Shown here piece after piece: positions 8,440 to 45,945 of a stretch of DNA of 45,945 nt. This DNA is from Candidatus Aquidulcis sp. Lineage in GTDB: Bacteria; Chloroflexota; Anaerolineae; UBA4142. The notes below the pieces were generated by a model that saw nothing but the letters and a program-made list of their open reading frames with translations, was not told the DNA's origin and made no database searches. The stretch spans positions 1 through 45,945 of the forward strand of contig DYJA01000052.1 in the NCBI GenBank assembly GCA_020723345.1, given 5' to 3'. Position 1 is the first letter of the stretch; every line of letters begins with the position of its first letter. Both the position numbers and the translations under genes were made by a program.

Positions 8440-8652
8440 TTATCCGCCAAGGTACTGTTCTATCCGCGCCGACCAATCCGAAGGTCCCGCGAGATTGAGC
8501 GAACGAGCCGTCCGTAGGAATGAGCGCGTTCTTTTCGCTTGTGGCACCTCCGCCTCAATCGTGATGCGCACGCGCGTATTCGGTTGCAACTTGAGCGGCT
8601 CGTCAAGACGCAATACTTGCCCATCAAAGGTTGCTTCGAGTGTTTGAGTCAT
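8440..8652 (-). CDS. Orphan DUF104-like antitoxin
   Basis: 70 residues: MTQTLEATFDGQVLRLDEPLKLQPNTRVRITIE fits the 'ATfDGqVL.LDepL.L..nT.V.vtIe' pattern of the AF2212/PG0164-like DUF104 family, usually antitoxin-like partners of PIN or MazF toxins. The remainder (SFLRTARSLNLAGPSDWSARIEQYL) is the typical Trp-containing C-terminal tail. The ATG at 8652 follows GCGGAGG. No toxin gene is adjacent: a 7-nt repeat run and the VWA operon lie upstream on this strand. Confidence 0.7.
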   Translation of the reverse strand: MTQTLEATFDGQVLRLDEPLKLQPNTRVRITIEAEVPQAKRTRSFLRTARSLNLAGPSDWSARIEQYLGG

Positions 8653-8718: not shown

Positions 8719-10395
8719 CTAAAAGTACGTCGAGAGAATCTTGTACAATTTGCTAATCGTGTCCGGGTCCGCGCGGCGCGCAAAGCCGCCCGTCGCGTCC
8801 GCGAGCGCGTTCAACACGTTCCAATCCGCGTCGCTGCCGTAGCCGATGCAGAAAATCACGACCGGCACGCCGCTCGCGTTGCCGCGCCGAACTTTGTCGG
8901 TGAGTTGGCTCAATTTGATCGACGACGAATTTTCGATGCCGTCGGTCATCACGACGATGGCGTTGATGCGGTCGCGGTCGCCGCGTTTCTGCAAATCGTC
9001 GTATGCGAACGACACCGCGTCGAGCAGCGCGGTCTGCCCACTTGCCCGCAGCGCTTTCACTTGCGATTTCAACATCGCGCGCTGCGCGCTAATGTCTTGC
9101 GGCGCGATTGTGCTGTACACGCGATTTGAAAACGGCACCAAGCCGACGCGGTCGCGGTCGCCTTGCACCTGATCGAGAAAAGTCGTGAGCGCGTCGATTG
9201 CCTGGTTCATTTTGTTCTGCTCGCCCATGCTGCCCGACGTATCCGCGACGAGATAAATATTCGCGGGACGTTTCGCCAGATACCACGACGCCTGGACTGT
9301 TTCGATGATCGCCGCGCTTGGCATTTGCAAAGTCGTCTGCGGTTGCGCGGGATCGACGCCGTTCGATTTCTTGATTGGCGACGCGGGATCGTCGAGCCGC
9401 AAATTTAGATCGACGGGACGATAGCCCGACTGCAAAATGAGTTTTTGAATTTCGGGCGACAAGACAAAATCGCGCAAACGCCGATAGGTCAAACGCTGAT
9501 CGTCGGTGAGACCGGGTTGTTCGAGCAGCGCGAGCGGATGGTCTTGCCAGAGCGTCCCCTCGGCGGGATAAATCGCGACGAGTTTTTGCGACGACTTGCC
9601 GTTAAAGTAAATCACCAATCGTTCAGAGACGACGAACGCGTCGAGGTAACTGCGTCCGCGCGCGAGCACTTGATCGATTGTCGCTTGCTCGCCTTCGCCG
9701 TAATAGCGTACCGTTTTTTCGAGCGCGGCGACGTAATCGAGCGTCGCGCGGTTTTTCACGTCGTCTTCAGTCAACGCGCGCGTCTTGTTCGCGCCCGCGT
9801 AAAATTCGGCGAGCGTCGCGAGCAAGCCGCTGGCGGAACTCGTCGAAGGATGGCTCCATTTGAAATTCGCGTCGCTCTTTGCTTTCGCGAGCAAATCTTG
9901 CCAGCCGATCTGTTTTTGCGGATAGCCCAGCGCTTGCGCCGCATCGCTCCACATCGCGATGACGATGGGCGTGACCGCAAAGCGCGTCGATTCGCCGACG
10001 AGTGGCGCATCGCGTCCCGCGTCCACCTGCGCGAGCCACAACGACGAGTCGGGGCTGATCGCGGTGAACTTGCCCGCGCGCGCCGCGTCGACAATGTCTG
10101 CCGCCTCCATTTTCGTCGCGTTGATCTTCATCGGCAAGCCCGACGGCGTTTTGTTGTTCGCCCTATTGAAACGCGCGACGATGTCTTGCATCAGCGCGTC
10201 TTTTTCGAGCGAGTACGCGAGATCAATCGTCGCGGTCGTTGGCGCGGATGTCGTTTCAGATGAACTGAGCACGGCGATCAGAAAGACGATGCCGCACAGC
10301 GCGGCGATCATGCTGCCCAAAACGCCAAAGACGACGAGCAGCGCGCAGCCGGTGGTTTTTTTGACTTCGGGATTGCGATTGCCCTTGCGCTTCAT
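8719..10395 (-). CDS. Solute-binding and von Willebrand factor A domain protein
   Basis: 558 residues. An N-terminal membrane anchor (TTGCALLVVFGVLGSMIAALCGIVF is the core, about residues 14-42) is followed by a type 2 solute-binding domain (about 55-345; IDLAYSLEKDALMQDIVARFN, then VTPIVIAMWSDAAQALGYP). The C-terminal VWA domain carries an intact MIDAS, DTSGS (Asp385, Ser387, Ser389), with GQTALLDA and VMTDGIEN completing the metal site. It overlaps the upstream solute-binding gene by ATGA and belongs to an operon with PspA. VWA domains bind protein partners through a divalent metal, so this may be a cell-surface sensing or scaffold protein rather than a transporter part, since no permease is present. 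Confidence 0.85.
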   Translation of the reverse strand: MKRKGNRNPEVKKTTGCALLVVFGVLGSMIAALCGIVFLIAVLSSSETTSAPTTATIDLAYSLEKDALMQDIVARFNRANNKTPSGLPMKINATKMEAADIVDAARAGKFTAISPDSSLWLAQVDAGRDAPLVGESTRFAVTPIVIAMWSDAAQALGYPQKQIGWQDLLAKAKSDANFKWSHPSTSSASGLLATLAEFYAGANKTRALTEDDVKNRATLDYVAALEKTVRYYGEGEQATIDQVLARGRSYLDAFVVSERLVIYFNGKSSQKLVAIYPAEGTLWQDHPLALLEQPGLTDDQRLTYRRLRDFVLSPEIQKLILQSGYRPVDLNLRLDDPASPIKKSNGVDPAQPQTTLQMPSAAIIETVQASWYLAKRPANIYLVADTSGSMGEQNKMNQAIDALTTFLDQVQGDRDRVGLVPFSNRVYSTIAPQDISAQRAMLKSQVKALRASGQTALLDAVSFAYDDLQKRGDRDRINAIVVMTDGIENSSSIKLSQLTDKVRRGNASGVPVVIFCIGYGSDADWNVLNALADATGGFARRADPDTISKLYKILSTYF

Positions 10396-13114: not shown

Positions 13115-14107
13115 TCACAACTCCACTTCCGTCCCCAGATTCTCGCGCACCGCCGCGTCGTAAATCGCGCGCGCGACCGACGCGTCCTGCGCCGCGTTGC
13201 CGACCGATTTGTAGTACGTGATCTCGTCGTCGCGTTCGCGTCCGCGCTTTTTGCCCGCCGCGATTTCGCCGATTTCCGCGTAAATGTCCGCTTCGGTGAT
13301 CGCGCCGTTCTTCAACGCGATGATCAGATCGCCCGCTTCGGCGAGCGCGGCGGCGCGCTGATCGACGACGATCTTGCTCGCGCGCTTGAGCGTCGTCTCA
13401 TCCACCTCTTGCATTTGCGGCGTGTACGCGCCAACCGCGTTGACGTGCGCGCCGGGCTTGAGATCGCCGCCGTCGAACACCGGCTTGGACGAAGTCGTCG
13501 CCGCGCAAATAATATCCGCGTCGCGCACCGCCTCCGCCGGAGACGATGCCGCGCGTATTTCCCCAGTTCCCTCAGTTCCCTTATTTCCTTGCATTTCCCT
13601 CGCGAACGCTTCCGCCTTTTCCCTCGCCACATCGTACACCCACACGCGTTCCAATTTTCGCACCGCCGCGACGGCGCGCAATTGCGTGCGCGCCTGCGTC
13701 CCCGCGCCAAAAATCGCGGCGACGCGCGCGTCGCGCCGCGCGAGTAAATCCGTGGCGACGCCGCTGCCCGCGCCGGTGCGGAGCGCGGTGAGATAGCCGC
13801 CCTCCATCGCCGCCAGCGGCTTGCCGGTCGCGGCGTCAACCACGACGACGAGCGCGTGAATCAGCGGCAGTCCTTTCGCAGGATTTCGATTGTGAACGGA
13901 AACGATCTTGACGGCGAGCGCGTCGGAGGCGTGCAGGTGCGCGGGCATGAACAACGTGACGGCGTCGTGCTGAGCAATCGGTACGGGGACGCGCAGAGGT
14001 ACAGTTGCTTGGTTCGTCGAGAGTTGGGCGAACGCGTCGCGCACAATCGCGATCGCGTCTGGCATCGTGAGCGCGCGTCGAACGTCGGCGCGGGCTAAGA
14101 TTCGCAT
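13115..14107 (-). CDS. Ornithine cyclodeaminase / mu-crystallin family protein
   Basis: 330 residues. Family landmarks: VPLRVPVP near the N-terminus, Lys67 in [34 protein letters not shown], the Rossmann loop [13 protein letters not shown] (about 132-143), [11 protein letters not shown], and [16 protein letters not shown]. The family includes NAD-dependent ornithine cyclodeaminase, alanine dehydrogenase and ketimine reductases, so the substrate cannot be fixed. An odd Gly/Thr/Glu-rich insert (GNKGTEGTG, about 174-182) sits between Rossmann strands and comes from a 9-nt repeat in the DNA. The ATG at 14107 follows ACGGAGG. It is divergent from the PhnDCE-type operon. Confidence 0.85.
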
Positions 14108-14128
14108 GAGCGACCTCCGTCGATAGAT

Positions 14129-14160
14129 TTGACAAATAACTAAAGTTAGTGTATACTAAC
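14129..14160 (+). promoter_or_regulatory. Consensus promoter with operator-like dyad for the PhnDCE-type operon
   Basis: TTGACA (14129-14134), 17-nt spacer, TATACT (14152-14157). The dyad GTTAGT-N4-ACTAAC (14145-14160) covers the -10 box, and ACTAAAGTTAGT is a second overlapping palindrome. This is a likely repressor site controlling the plus-strand operon and possibly the divergent cyclodeaminase gene. Confidence 0.7.
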
Positions 14161-14252
14161 GAATGAAGTTGGCGTCGCGATACGCCACCCGTACACGCAC
14201 GCGCATTATACCCCACCTGCGCGTGAAAAGAAAATCTTGCCAAGGAGGCAAT

Positions 14253-42402: not shown

Positions 42403-43032
42403 CTATGGCAAAGGATTGGTAAATCCCATGATAATCACTCGATCACTGCCATGCCTTCGACATGCCGGCGGAATCGACGCTTGAAAGGATGTCGTTCCCG
42501 CCGGGTAGCGCAATGTCGTCGTTTGCGGTCCGACAATGAGATTGTCTCTGGGGTTCTCACAACAACCGGACGTATGGTTACAGTGACAATATTCTAGAGC
42601 GCGCGGTTCACACGCATCTATGGCGGCTAGATCAGCATTGCAGAATGTTACAGTTCTTTCCTGGAGGTTGAAGAAACCAAAACCGATTTGGACCGTACCT
42701 GGAATATATCCACAACGCGAAGGAAAATTGTTGCCTGGATTGGGCGGTGGGGGCGATGTCGGAACTTGGGTTGGAAGAATAGTTGCTGTGGCGATGGCGG
42801 TCGGAGTCAGTGTCGACGTTGGCTTGGGCGTCGAAGTGTGAGTAGGTGGAGGCAAGGTATCTGTTGCTGTCGCAATCCTGGCGACGGTGGGAACAGGCAA
42901 AGCGGGTTGAGTTGCCGCAACGGTCTGGGTTGCGATGAAAGGAGGCGCGACAACCGGAGTTGCGATGGGCAAAAATGCACAGCCGCTGTTCAGGAGCAAA
43001 AGAAAGAACGTACTGAGTATTGGTCGTCTCAT
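42403..43032 (-). CDS. Cys-rich lipoprotein, unknown function
   Basis: 209 residues from the ATG at 43032 (site AGGTAGAGAA). Lipobox LLNSGC, then a Thr/Pro-rich linker. The C-terminal part is Cys-rich (YIPGTVQIGFGFFNLQERTVTFCN, CEPRALEYCHC, TSGCCENPRDN) with an even set of Cys for disulfides. Visibly AT-richer than the ccm region. It starts 29 nt from the first attC-like site, so it could belong to an adjoining cassette in reverse orientation, though no site is seen at its other end. The longer frame to 43329 reads through that palindrome and is rejected. Confidence 0.65.
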   Translation of the reverse strand: MRRPILSTFFLLLLNSGCAFLPIATPVVAPPFIATQTVAATQPALPVPTVARIATATDTLPPPTHTSTPKPTSTLTPTAIATATILPTQVPTSPPPPNPGNNFPSRCGYIPGTVQIGFGFFNLQERTVTFCNADLAAIDACEPRALEYCHCNHTSGCCENPRDNLIVGPQTTTLRYPAGTTSFQASIPPACRRHGSDRVIIMGFTNPLP

Positions 43033-43056
43033 TTCTCTACCTGTGATGGAGGCGAC

Positions 43057-43180
43057 GCGGAACGCTGTAGCGCACCGACCACGCCCAAAGTGACCCACGA
43101 AATGAAACCAACCTCCAACCGCGCCAACCAAGTTCGCCAAAAGGCGCGTACCGTGCGTGGTCGGCGTGCGCGTGTTTGCT
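43057..43180. other. attC-like recombination site 1
   Basis: Left end GCGG-AAC (43061-43063) then GCTGTAGCGCACCGACCACGC. Right arm GCGTGGTCGGCGTGCGCGT then GTT (43174-43176). Stem blocks GCGCAC and CGACCACGC pair, with two unpaired bases (GC) on the right arm between them. Central part unique. Length about 124 nt. The outer seven bases do not pair with each other beyond AAC/GTT. Confidence 0.7.
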
Positions 43181-43203
43181 GCCGTTGGTCTTTGTGGTAT
43201 AAT
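43176..43203 (+). promoter_or_regulatory. Cassette-borne promoter for the antitoxin/MazF pair
   Basis: TTGCTG (43176-43181), 16-nt spacer, TATAAT (43198-43203), directly inside the recombination point. The antitoxin ATG follows at 43240. Confidence 0.6.
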
Positions 43204-43239
43204 TGCGGCAGGCAAAAGCCAGTACGTGGAGGGTGGAAA

Positions 43240-43446
43240 ATGACGACACAAACGGCTCTCAAGTATGATATTGAACTTAAAGCACCTGGACGGCTCGAAC
43301 TCGATGTTCCATTTCCTGCGGGCGCGCACGTCACCGTCTTTGTTATCGAATTAGGCGAAACTTTTGATGACTTGCTAGTCGTGTCCGAAAGTAGTTTGGA
43401 GTTCTGGAATAATCCTTTTGACGATGAGGATTGGAACCATGCCTGA
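43240..43446 (+). CDS. Small antitoxin of a MazF-type pair
   Basis: 68 residues: MTTQTALKYDIELKAPGRLELDVPFPAGAHVTVFVIEL, then an acidic tail with Phe/Trp (DDLLVVSESSLEFWNNPFDDEDW) expected to block the MazF active site. The N-terminal strands fit the same short antitoxin style as the protein at 3000-3251. The ATG follows GGAGGGTGGAAA. The last 8 nt overlap the toxin start. Whole pair lies inside one attC-bounded cassette. Confidence 0.75.
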   Translation: MTTQTALKYDIELKAPGRLELDVPFPAGAHVTVFVIELGETFDDLLVVSESSLEFWNNPFDDEDWNHA

Positions 43447-43783
43447 GCAGGGTGATATTCTTCTCATTCCGATTCCGTTTACTGACCTCTCATCGCAGAA
43501 GCGTCGTCCCGTCATCGTCATCTCCAACAATGTCTACAATCAGAAGACGGCAGATATTATCGTTGTCGCGATGACCTCGAACCCTGCACCAGTAGATTTC
43601 AGTTTTCCGATTACTTCCTCGGATTTGGACAAGGGAGCGTTGAATCGCCCAGGCAAAGTACGCGTTGACAAAATCTACACGCTCTCTCAATCCATCGTGG
43701 TCAAGGCATTCGGACACGTAAACGAATCCACTCTTGAGCGAATCCGTCAAATTCTACGCGACTTGACTACGAAGACCCAGTAG
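43439..43783 (+). CDS. PemK/MazF-family endoribonuclease toxin
   Basis: 114 residues, full length for the family. Conserved elements: QGDILLIPIPFTDLSSQKRRPVIVISNN (beta1-beta2 with the Arg of RRPVIV), DIIVVAMTSNP (the Thr/Ser of the active site), and GKVRVDKIYTLSQSIV. Expected to cut mRNA at short motifs. Starts inside the antitoxin gene (8-nt overlap). The next attC-like site begins 18 nt after its stop. Confidence 0.9.
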   Translation: MPEQGDILLIPIPFTDLSSQKRRPVIVISNNVYNQKTADIIVVAMTSNPAPVDFSFPITSSDLDKGALNRPGKVRVDKIYTLSQSIVVKAFGHVNESTLERIRQILRDLTTKTQ

Positions 43784-43801
43784 CAACTCGAAGGCAATGG
43801 C

Positions 43802-43896
43802 AGCAAACGGCGTAGCGCACCGACCACGGCGGACGAATTGAAAGTGATTGTCGTTTGGCAACCGATACCGCCGTTGTCGTGGTGCGTGTGTTTCGC
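43802..43896. other. attC-like recombination site 2
   Basis: Left AAC (43806-43808) preceded by GGCAGCA (43799-43805), exact complement of site 1's right end (GTTTGCTGCC, 43174-43183). Then GGCGTAGCGCACCGACCACGGCGG. Right arm CCGCCGTTGTCGTGGTGCGTGT then GTT (43890-43892). Paired blocks CGCACC, GAC and ACGGCGG, with two extra bases on the right arm at the same place as in site 1. Length about 95 nt. Confidence 0.72.
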
Positions 43897-43913
43897 GTTC
43901 GTGCGTTTTGGTG

Positions 43914-43919
43914 TATAAT
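43914..43919 (+). promoter_or_regulatory. TATAAT box of the second cassette (leaderless start likely)
   Basis: TATAAT at 43914-43919 with TTTTGGTG just before it, similar to TTTGTGG-TATAAT of the first cassette. The GTG start codon is 6 nt after the box, so transcription would begin at or next to the start codon. No -35 element is convincing. Confidence 0.55.
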
Positions 43920-43925
43920 CCAGGC

Positions 43926-44606
43926 GTGGACATTGACCGCGAATTGAAAGACGCGCTACAACAAATTTTAGAACTGTGCGACGAGTTTGATGTTCATCCG
44001 CGACTCATCGGCGGTTTAGCGGTGCGCGGTTTTGCGCGACGCAAACGATTCACGCACGACATTGACCTTGCTATCAGTCGCCAAGACAAACCCAACTTTA
44101 TCACGATTCTCAAGCGGTTGGGTTTTGAGTACCAAGACCTGACCAAGTTTGAAGGTGTCAAAGCGACCAAGCGCGTAGGCAACACGTCAGTTGAAATTCA
44201 CATCTCGGTCGAAAGACTGTGGGATATGACTTCCAATCAGACGTACACGCTTTCACCCGATTCGGCGCAAGTTGCGGTTGACGATGCGGGCAATTTGCTT
44301 GCGCCGACTGTTTCCGCCGAAGATTTGCTGATACTCAAACTGATGCCACTACGCGACCGCGACCTGGGCGATGTGATTGCCTTGTTGCTTGACCTGCCCG
44401 CGATTGACGCCAAGAAATTTTGGGCGAACTGCGAGCGCACGAACAACGCGCGCCACATCACCGCGCAACTTTTGAAACTTGAAAACGCGTTGCGGAGCGG
44501 CGATTTCCGCGAAGCGTGGTCAGAATATTACGACGAGCGGCTTTCCGCGCGCGATGTGCTTGTCGTGATTGACAAAGTGCGCACACTCCAAAAGGCGAAA
44601 TTATGA
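43926..44606 (+). CDS. Nucleotidyltransferase-fold protein (AbiEii/DUF6036-like)
   Basis: 226 residues from GTG 43926. The minimal NTase core is visible: LIGGLAVRGF (Gly29-Gly30), then HDIDLAIS (Asp45, Asp47), followed by a helical domain (SAEDLLILKLMPLRDRDLGDVIALLLDL), the form seen in AbiEii-type toxins and related DUFs. No upstream ribosome site; the TATAAT lies 6 nt before the start, suggesting a leaderless mRNA. Stop overlaps the next ATG (ATGA). May transfer a nucleotide to a tRNA or protein target as in known AbiEii members, but that is an extrapolation. Confidence 0.72.
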   Translation: MDIDRELKDALQQILELCDEFDVHPRLIGGLAVRGFARRKRFTHDIDLAISRQDKPNFITILKRLGFEYQDLTKFEGVKATKRVGNTSVEIHISVERLWDMTSNQTYTLSPDSAQVAVDDAGNLLAPTVSAEDLLILKLMPLRDRDLGDVIALLLDLPAIDAKKFWANCERTNNARHITAQLLKLENALRSGDFREAWSEYYDERLSARDVLVVIDKVRTLQKAKL

Positions 44607-44971
44607 ACGCGCAAATTGCTTGTCCGAATTGTCGTTCGACAAACACAATTTCATTCAACGGAAATATCTTGGATACTCCGCTGACCTGCCAGATTTGTGG
44701 ACGAACCTTCGCGCCGCATTTCTATTGCCCCGATGCGCGTTCGTCTGCGCGTCATATCTTCGCAGCATCGTCTTTGCGCGTTGATAATCTGGGCGCGGTC
44801 TACGCGTTTTGCCCCGAACATACTTTCACGACATACTCGCTCGCGGCAGACAGCAAGCCGCGCCCGAAACAAACTTCCCTGCGTTCCCTCGTGCGTTTCC
44901 TCGATTCGCTCGTTTATCGCCTCACGCTGAACATTGAAGCGTTGCGGTTGCAAGCGTTTTCGCGGCGATAG
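44603..44971 (+). CDS. Zinc-ribbon protein, partner of the nucleotidyltransferase
   Basis: 122 residues. An N-terminal treble/ribbon: ACPNC (Cys7, Cys10) and CQICG (Cys29, Cys32), followed by HFYCPDARSS and FCPEH, possibly a second metal site. The rest is helical and basic (KPRPKQTSLRSLVRFLDSLVYRLTL is the core). ATGA overlap with the nucleotidyltransferase gene implies a two-gene unit. Not a recognised family. Confidence 0.6.
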   Translation: MNAQIACPNCRSTNTISFNGNILDTPLTCQICGRTFAPHFYCPDARSSARHIFAASSLRVDNLGAVYAFCPEHTFTTYSLAADSKPRPKQTSLRSLVRFLDSLVYRLTLNIEALRLQAFSRR

Positions 44972-45002
44972 CGTTATGTGTTTATGCGTCGGTTCTTTCG
45001 TT

Positions 45003-45518
45003 CTACTCTCCGCGAAGTTCACCAATCCCCGTCAGAATAGTTCCAATTCCAGTGGTAGCCGATACGACCGCCCCTAAACTTGCGGTTTCTGGTGGAAATG
45101 GAACAGACCACAAACCTGCGGCAAGTGTAATATTGGTCATTGTCATCAGCGCGCCTTGAGCAATTGAACCGATGCCTTTAAATGTCGCGCGCTTTACTGC
45201 GGTTTTTTTGTTTGACTGATTCGGTTTGGGTGGTTCTTGGGAGAATGTGTTCTCGATTCTTTCAACACGTTGAGCAACTTCCCCAAGTGTTTGGCTAAAT
45301 CGAACTTGTCGGCTTTCCCGTATCAATTGCTCCTTGCGCGATTTGATGAGATATACCAACGCGATTATCTCGCGGCGGGAGTCAGAACTTCCCGCTTGTT
45401 CCAACACCTCAAAATCTTCTTTTGGAAAATGGTCAACACTCATTCCGTCCACAATTTCACCGAAGTAGTCTTGGATAACGTCGGCGATTCCTGTATCAAC
45501 CACAAGTTCGTTGTTCAT
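45003..45518 (-). CDS. Hypothetical protein with C-terminal hydrophobic region
   Basis: 171 residues. N-terminal half soluble and acidic (VVDTGIADVIQDYFGEIVDGMSV), then a coiled-coil-like stretch (LGEVAQRVERIENTFSQ). The C-terminal 50 residues are Gly/Ala/Thr-rich and hydrophobic (SIAQGALMTMTNITLAAGLWSVPFPPETASLGAVVS is representative) with GIGTILTGIGELRGE at the end, reminiscent of small holin-like or pore-like membrane proteins. No ribosome site. Co-directional with the gene 12 nt upstream. Inside the second cassette. Confidence 0.5.
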   Translation of the reverse strand: MNNELVVDTGIADVIQDYFGEIVDGMSVDHFPKEDFEVLEQAGSSDSRREIIALVYLIKSRKEQLIRESRQVRFSQTLGEVAQRVERIENTFSQEPPKPNQSNKKTAVKRATFKGIGSIAQGALMTMTNITLAAGLWSVPFPPETASLGAVVSATTGIGTILTGIGELRGE

Positions 45519-45530
45519 TTGTACGCCGTA

Positions 45531-45770
45531 TCATACAGACCGTATCGTTTCCTTGACCATCTCTAGCGTAAAACTGCGGCTGAAGTCTTCATCGTTCTCC
45601 GCGTAATCTTTGATGAACCGCAAAGCACGCGTTGCACTTGTGAGTCTCGACAAGCGATGCTCGAACTCATGCTCGAAATGCAAGTGCCATCTTTCTTGAA
45701 CATTGGCTAGATTTTTCTGGATGTGTTCATAGAAAATATACTTGATGAATTCTTCGTAGTCGTTGCTCAT
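45531..45770 (-). CDS. Hypothetical helical protein of the second cassette
   Basis: 79 residues: MSNDYEEFIKYIFYEHIQKNLANVQERWHLHFEHEFEHRLSRL..., rich in aromatic, Glu and His residues and probably all helical. Unrecognised. The ATG at 45770 follows AAGGGGTTCTACA. First of a two-gene minus-strand unit converging on the nucleotidyltransferase pair. The attC-like site begins 64 nt upstream. Confidence 0.5.
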   Translation of the reverse strand: MSNDYEEFIKYIFYEHIQKNLANVQERWHLHFEHEFEHRLSRLTSATRALRFIKDYAENDEDFSRSFTLEMVKETIRSV

Positions 45771-45833
45771 TGTAGAACCCCTTATTTATGGCTATGATGC
45801 CGCGTGCTCAACTTGGACTTGGAATGGCATGAC

Positions 45834-45945
45834 GCGAAACGCCGTAGCGCACCGACCGCGCCGCGCCGCGAGCGTGAAGCCGCGTTCTTTTTTTCGCCAA
45901 TCGCTTCGCGTGCCCCCACCCGCGCGGCGTGGTCGGGGGGCGTAT
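45834..45945. other. attC-like recombination site 3 (reaches the window end)
   Basis: Left AAC (45838-45840) preceded by ACGCGA; ACGCGAAAC (45832-45840) is the exact complement of site 2's right end (GTTTCGCGT, 43890-43898). Then GCCGTAGCGCACCGACCGCGCCGCG. Right arm CGCGCGGCGTGGTCGG then GGGGCGTAT, where the window stops just before the expected GTT. Blocks CGACC and CGCCGCG pair, again with two extra bases on the right arm. Length at least 112 nt. Confidence 0.68.

Follow-up and report, generated by a model that had tools for sequence, protein, structure and literature searches.

A gene-cassette array of integron-like type in a Chloroflexota genome, with a candidate recombinase outside the IntI family

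The window analysed here, a stretch of 45,945 nt that makes up the whole of contig C78, comes from the 6.34-Mb draft genome of Candidatus Aquidulcis sp. (Chloroflexota; 95.5% complete; G000 in our labelling, in which G, C and L numbers denote genomes, contigs and loci). Its right end carries three hairpin sites, s1 to s3, which bound two gene cassettes, and a sequence-only reading had proposed an integron-like array with a divergent, lineage-specific family of attC-like sites. Further sites, neighbour pairing, covarying hairpins, docking sites and cassettes mobile from end to end bear this proposal out, and we consider it likely that the window's right end is the distal portion of a gene-cassette array belonging to an integron-like system. 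The sites, cassettes and open reading frames (ORFs) are as follows.

42403..43060, minus strand: distal neighbour past s1, a lipoprotein-like ORF (MRRPILSTFF...); a cassette start, GTT-CCGCGTC-GCC (TTCCGCGTC-GCC), lies on the far side of s1, towards 42403
43061..43176, minus strand: hairpin recombination site s1, attC-like, 116 nt, the end of cassette B in the canonical (minus-strand) reading; 138 bits with covariance model R1 (by construction), covariation in an 89-site alignment
43177..43805, minus strand: cassette B, toxin-antitoxin, 629 bp, s1 to s2; ends complementary, TGCTGCC / GGCAGCA
43240..43446, plus strand: putative antitoxin, 68-aa ORF overlapping the toxin gene; function by position only, no Pfam or NCBIfam match
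43439..43783, plus strand: MazF/PemK-type toxin gene, against the array direction (PF02452, 6.6e-20)
43806..43892, minus strand: hairpin recombination site s2, 87 nt, of an 85-87-nt subtype also found in relatives
43893..45837, minus strand: cassette A, 1945 bp, s2 to s3; ends complementary, TCGCGT / ACGCGA
43926..44606, plus strand: nucleotidyltransferase gene of AbiEii / DUF6036 type (PF08843, 4.6e-6; PF19502, 1.1e-5; PADLOC AbiEii, 6.4e-6)
44603..44971, plus strand: 122-aa ORF, possible zinc ribbon; sub-threshold Pfam matches only
45003..45518, minus strand: 171-aa ORF, no family match
45531..45770, minus strand: 79-aa ORF, no family match
45838..45945, minus strand: hairpin recombination site s3, cut by the contig end, its outer GTT not assembled; 30 bits, 3' end cut off

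All three sites share a left arm of the form AAC-Gnn-GTAGCGCACCGACC. Exact copies of GTAGCGCACCGACC occur three times in the 6.34-Mb genome, each time in the window; with up to three mismatches allowed, six window matches are found, which is chance level, so the exact triple is the signal. Mismatched copies of this 14-mer core elsewhere in the genome were set aside as mostly noise, the control lying above the signal. The sequence-only reading had assigned to every site this left arm, a right end in GTT and two unpaired bases. The shared core stands, but the outer GTT of s3 is missing at the contig end, and the unpaired bases, present in s1, s2 and probably s3, are not universal, as sites c1 and c2 of contig C124 pair without them. 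The left end of C124 is an s3-like site cut at the same point, with the last ~16 bases identical.

An Rfam scan of the window gave no match. We turn to covariance model R1, built from four sites (two of the window, two of C124) and run over 119 genomes, the window's own included, at E ≤ 0.001. The further sites that the earlier reading had proposed to look for in this way were found in G000 (C103, C99 and C14) and in relatives: sites of this type occur in 21 of the 119 genomes, among them 13 of the 14 genomes of the window's family. The s1-type body recurs on C124, C103, C99 and C14 of G000, and the hairpins fall into size classes of about 85, 107 or 116 nt, ending G|TT. On C103 (L080, about 9170-9190) a hairpin has apparently been deleted, leaving CCGCTAAC-GCGTG-TGTTAGCAGACGCGCG; its right end is that of the intact site at 8524-8638.

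The outer ends of the sites pair with those of their neighbours. The right end of s1, GTTTGCTGCC, is the exact 10-nt complement of the left end of s2, and the right end of s2, GTTTCGCGT, is the exact 9-nt complement of the left end of s3. This pairing, which the earlier reading had described for the window, holds more widely: over 29-34 adjacent pairs, mostly from relatives, with eight positions scored, the observed mean was 3.68 of 8, a value reached by none of 5,000 permutations (permuted mean 2.50, maximum 3.35). At least six of the eight positions match in 55% of adjacent pairs versus 3.6% of sites from different loci. Within a site the ends pair at random level (2.95 versus 2.89), in agreement with the claim that the outermost bases do not pair within their own site. 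As in attC, an AAC/GTT-ended imperfect palindrome is kept as a structure. Across the 89 aligned matches, both sides had changed at 17 of 18 base pairs, double changes numbered 221 versus 61 after shuffling, and 91.6% of the pairing cells were paired in register versus 21-59% when the alignment was slid; this covariation shows that the hairpins are maintained.

The integron R-box consensus, RYYYAAC / GTTRRRY, is absent from these sites, as had been remarked of the window's flanks, although GTTAGAC is present at one site of G000. Cassettes start with, for example, TTTGCTGC, TTTCGCGT or TTCCACGC, in which only G5 and C7 recur; the rule is GTT-NNNNGNC, with N's that vary among cassettes and agree within one cassette. 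Such units appear to move as wholes, joining attC or attI at G/TT. Cassette B is 93% identical from end to end (1-629 of 629) to a cassette of G004:C73, a genome of another genus; its AAC end adjoins s2 in the window but a docking site (GAGTTCGTGAAATATAAG|TT, read from the head) in G004. A second cassette is present at full length (853/853 bases) in L148 and L142 (G013 and G008), with different neighbours on both sides. At the fabD position, G000 (C114) and G008 have a docking site followed by different cassettes after G|TT; on C114 the docking site, a cassette and an 85-nt hairpin lie between fabD and a fabG-like gene (names by sequence reading). A further complete unit in G000, on C99, has a single cassette with a gene for a VapC-type toxin. 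Single copies lacking genes had been named beforehand as a point against an array; single copies do exist, but both of those read fully, on C99 and C114, comprise docking site, cassette and hairpin.

The docking site is an attI-like element of about 108 nt with two imperfect hairpins, aligned here from 15 loci. It lies directly behind the stop codon of a gene for a tyrosine recombinase that we call TR-W. Its conserved stretch ends TAAG|TT or CTAG|TT; from there on the loci differ, continuing with cassette starts that obey the GTT-NNNNGNC rule. The 3' end of TR-W is found just ahead of a docking site in 9-10 loci, and nearly all loci that reach past an intact TR-W 3' end have one there. At these TR-W loci of relatives, as expected of an attI, the element stands next to the recombinase gene, insertion is at G/TT and cassettes are stacked behind it. 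In several arrays the recombinase gene is 650-750 nt past the last site. Docking sites without a recombinase head other arrays (L146, L151, L152, L157, L159, L163 and L166), 468-909 nt ahead of the first hairpin. The docking-site model matches 17 of 40 relatives, all from two families of one order except for one weak match. Arrays in G009 and G012 (L145, 2317; L149, 10753) have at their head a docking site of a second type (GATGCAAGCATCTAAATGTAGATGCTTGG..GTAAG|TT).

For the window's own genome, the assembly does not include TR-W with a docking site behind it. Because both are expected past the right end, we read the window's array on the minus strand, with its head beyond that end, which reverses the direction assumed in the sequence-only reading; the orientation of the toxin-antitoxin and nucleotidyltransferase genes is thus opposite to that of the array. 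Contigs C130 and C76 of G000 each end within the first 42 codons of a TR-W gene, their last 55 bases identical, which from the sequence is an assembly break at two near copies of TR-W. Together with the two contigs that end in an array, the window and C124, these two TR-W starts are consistent with two arrays whose middles are unassembled, the pairing of contigs being our inference.

TR-W proteins have about 380-393 residues, and copies are 67-80% identical to the reference; we counted as TR-W-type any gene of at least 60% identity or with the N-terminal domain. Residues R245, K270, H335-x-x-R338, H361 and Y370, catalytic by alignment with the family (G010 numbering), are invariant. Aligned to IntI, TR-W shows a gap before the H-x-x-R box, at the IntI-specific additional domain, and it scores 198-210 bits with TIGR02249 (integron integrase), below the cut-off of 265, against 449 bits for the IntI of G000. 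An extra domain of about 60 residues lies at its N terminus; HARP as its identity is a guess from the pattern W-N-P-E-R-K-x-W (more loosely W-x-x-x-R-K-x-W), with a Pfam E of only 0.24. The tree separates IntI (22 rows) from TR-W (8 rows) as two clades with full support, the IntI clade at 100/100, and groups TR-W with IS91-companion recombinases at 98/90. A structural model from 21 sequences, good for the catalytic part, reached a predicted local distance difference test (pLDDT) score of 82.6; an 8-sequence model was poor (pLDDT 54). Where TR-W-bearing relatives have named records, these belong to uncultured Chloroflexota; groundwater and a deep lake cast are the main sources, and several records carry the label Anaerolineae. 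A match on G004:C359 was rejected as TR-W, being a generic recombinase instead.

Immediately past the TR-W stop codon and ahead of the docking site, ten of ten loci (L147, L202-L209 and L212) have a mini-ORF of 3-4 codons (MDTS*, MNHP*, MSGP*, MKDT*, MNAS*, MPEP*, MSP*) with a Shine-Dalgarno AGGAGG. The mini-ORFs recall the short ORF of attI1, which helps to translate cassette genes. Upstream of TR-W, L202, L204-L209, L251 and L252 share promoter-like boxes, a leader ORF and a terminator-like hairpin, CACCTGC..GCAGGTG-TTTTT, a layout that looks like transcription attenuation. At L220 (G009:C51, 2421-6474) four different tyrosine recombinase genes stand in a row, two per direction.

TR-W is probably the cognate enzyme of the cassette system. 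It occurs in 11 of the 119 genomes, and all 11 also have these sites (hypergeometric 3e-10, uncorrected for kinship). The main alternative is an ordinary integron. On that view an IntI encoded in the same genome or in neighbouring ones would act in trans on divergent attC sites, the window would be a cluster of attC sites lacking an integron-integrase (CALIN), and TR-W would be a mere neighbour or passenger, unrelated to the array. In its favour are the hairpin plan and the G/TT junction, both as in attC, the frequency of IntI in the class (23 of 60 genomes) and a full IntI in G000 itself; moreover, CALINs are common and metagenome-assembled genomes break at attC repeats (PMC9024848, PMC9668308). 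The IntI-like recombinase that the sequence-only reading had suggested searching for thus exists, complete, in G000 (C42), but it adjoins one classical attC (GCCCAAC..GTTAGGC; both at L039, 11211-13150) and no site of the window's type, and the idea that the array belongs to this IntI was dropped on that ground. More generally, the presence of the sites tracks TR-W and not IntI, which is found in 9 of the 18 site-bearing genomes among the 60 (no link, p 0.18). No site of this type adjoins the 20 IntI loci of relatives, with G104 and a broken IntI of G016:C49 as the only exceptions seen; G003, G008, G009 and G010 have many sites and no IntI match at E<1e-60; and it is TR-W that the docking site follows in locus after locus. 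On C42, a nucleotidyltransferase-like ORF (13340-14209) comes after IntI and attC.

Several observations weigh against the assignment of the array to TR-W. The array G104:C107 (L167, 9292-11800) is mixed, holding classical attC, two window-type sites and an IntI start, and suggests that IntI may use these sites. TR-W was not found in the site-bearing G004, G005, G011, G025, G030, G036, G077 and G104, nor in the docking-site-bearing G014, G017 and G019, and G005 and G037 hold TR-W fragments only; contig breaks, which did hide the gene in G000, may do so in some of these. The approximately unbiased (AU) test does not reject a clade of TR-W with IntI (p 0.12), for which reason we confine our claim to a place for TR-W outside IntI and, despite the 98/90 support, do not claim it as sister of the IS91 companions. 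The solved structures nearest to the TR-W model are IntI 2a3v and XerA. Finally, about 40% of adjacent site pairs pair poorly, which we would ascribe to missed sites, a misplaced AAC or decay. Because the mixed array and the genomes without TR-W tell against it, we rate the TR-W assignment no higher than probable and keep service by IntI in trans as an unlikely but real contender.

Very unlikely, in our view, is spread of IS91/ISCR type, in which TR-W would be the companion of an IS91-family transposase and the arrays by-products of rolling-circle transposition. TR-W's nearest relatives outside its family (35-48%) do adjoin IS91-type transposases, and an IS91-type gene comes after the docking site in G001 (L205) and in L211, the latter beside a distant relative; but no HUH transposase is present at most TR-W loci, where the next unit is an ordinary cassette, both cassette ends have G|TT junctions, and the hairpins covary. 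In L205 (121-287), L211 (10340-11900) and L154 (13241) the docking site is followed by GTT-GAACNGAAATGCTT, and in the first two then by the transposase gene; the docking junction may be the exact point at which elements of this kind insert. The weakest explanation, dispersed palindromes flanking genes by accident, of the repetitive extragenic palindrome or miniature inverted-repeat transposable element kind, is hardly credible: sites are many per genome, on many contigs and some single, but their ends pair with the neighbour rather than within a copy, genes lie between copies, gene-bearing units match end to end in other genomes, and fully read single copies carry docking site, genes and hairpin.

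With TR-W as the probable enzyme, the system would work as follows. A cassette has the layout G|TT-NNNNGNC-ATTCC ... NCNNNN-AAC, followed by a hairpin site ending G|TT; the variable bases of its start would pair with its own end, so that a full outer stem would form only in the excised circle. TR-W, encoded directly upstream of docking sites in the direction of the array, may recombine the folded single strand of the hairpin with attI; cassettes would enter at the docking site (TAAG|TT) and stack behind it, and the enzyme would act in trans on several docking sites per genome. Covarying hairpins, G|TT junctions, whole-cassette mobility and docking sites with different cassettes can be read, as far as sequence allows, from the genomes themselves. 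We lean, by a modest degree, towards a second, IntI-independent kind of integron with a non-IntI recombinase, hairpins and dispersed docking sites in one Anaerolineae-related order of Chloroflexota, in which single-strand cassette capture would have arisen in a recombinase that lacks the IntI domain thought necessary for it, or would have spread to one.

Under the strict definition an integron has IntI, a tyrosine recombinase with the IntI-specific additional domain (PMC9668308, PMC9024848). TR-W lacks this domain, and we therefore do not file the system as an integron in the strict sense, although by every sequence test that could be made it appears to work like one. It shares with integrons, both sedentary chromosomal ones and CALINs, the AAC/GTT-ended hairpins with inner stem and variable tip, cassettes stacked behind an attI-like site, the G/TT junction, toxin-antitoxin cassettes, sites alike within a lineage and contig breaks at sites. 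It differs in a recombinase without the IntI-specific insert and outside the IntI clade, in an outer arm of NNNNGNC instead of GTTRRRY/RYYYAAC, in a docking site at the recombinase 3' end in the same direction, and in the number of docking sites, of which a genome has several, some of them immediately after housekeeping genes (fabD, for example). CALINs are known (PMC9668308, PMC9024848), and Chloroflexota integrons are already on record (PMC8618304). The assembled window, with at least two attC-like sites within 4 kb and no adjoining IntI, has the form of a CALIN; its contig breaks at s3, beyond which relatives lead us to expect a non-IntI recombinase.

Over residues 103-365 the TR-W model shares the fold of Vibrio cholerae IntI (PDB 2a3v; Z 21.8, root-mean-square deviation (rmsd) 2.8 Å, 259 aligned, 36% identity) and of XerA (5hxy, 4a8e; for 5hxy Z 24.5, rmsd 14.8, the domains being placed differently); it differs in the missing IntI insert before the H-x-x-R box and the extra N-terminal domain. 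The IS91 companions, its nearest relatives in sequence, lack the N-terminal domain and stand next to a transposase, with no hairpin-site array seen. Vibrio strand-biased integrative (SE) elements are likewise tyrosine-recombinase systems with strand bias, discussed beside integrons, but are large integrative elements whose reported targets have no attC/attI-like inverted repeats (PMC9345347). We found no report of an IntI-independent integron or a Chloroflexota-specific system in the open-access papers searched, subscription papers lying outside the search.

The ability of a tyrosine recombinase to use folded single-stranded sites is held to come from the IntI-specific domain, which is also what surveys rely on to find integrons. 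If our reading is right, some 'integrase-less' attC clusters would be complete systems probed wrongly, and TR-W would offer a second protein for studying hairpin-site recognition. The layout would be genome-wide, with one enzyme serving many docking sites per chromosome in trans, as opposed to the single platform of known integrons, and a major bacterial gene-capture system may have a second form.

As to the window's own cassettes, the toxin-antitoxin and nucleotidyltransferase genes have promoter-like boxes of their own, as judged from sequence, with a TATAAT-like box ahead of the antitoxin-toxin ORF pair. The segment 42403..43060, whose cassette start lies outside the stretch marked by the sequence-only reading, is either the last cassette, without a recognisable trailing hairpin, or flank; a search upstream for the complementary end of the cassette beyond s1 found none. 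Part of cassette A, 43893-44972, is also present in G004 (88%) and G013. The remainder, 44973-45821, is 0.85 kb extra relative to G013, and G004 carries another insert in that place; growth of cassettes thus seems to occur at one fixed position immediately ahead of the tail.

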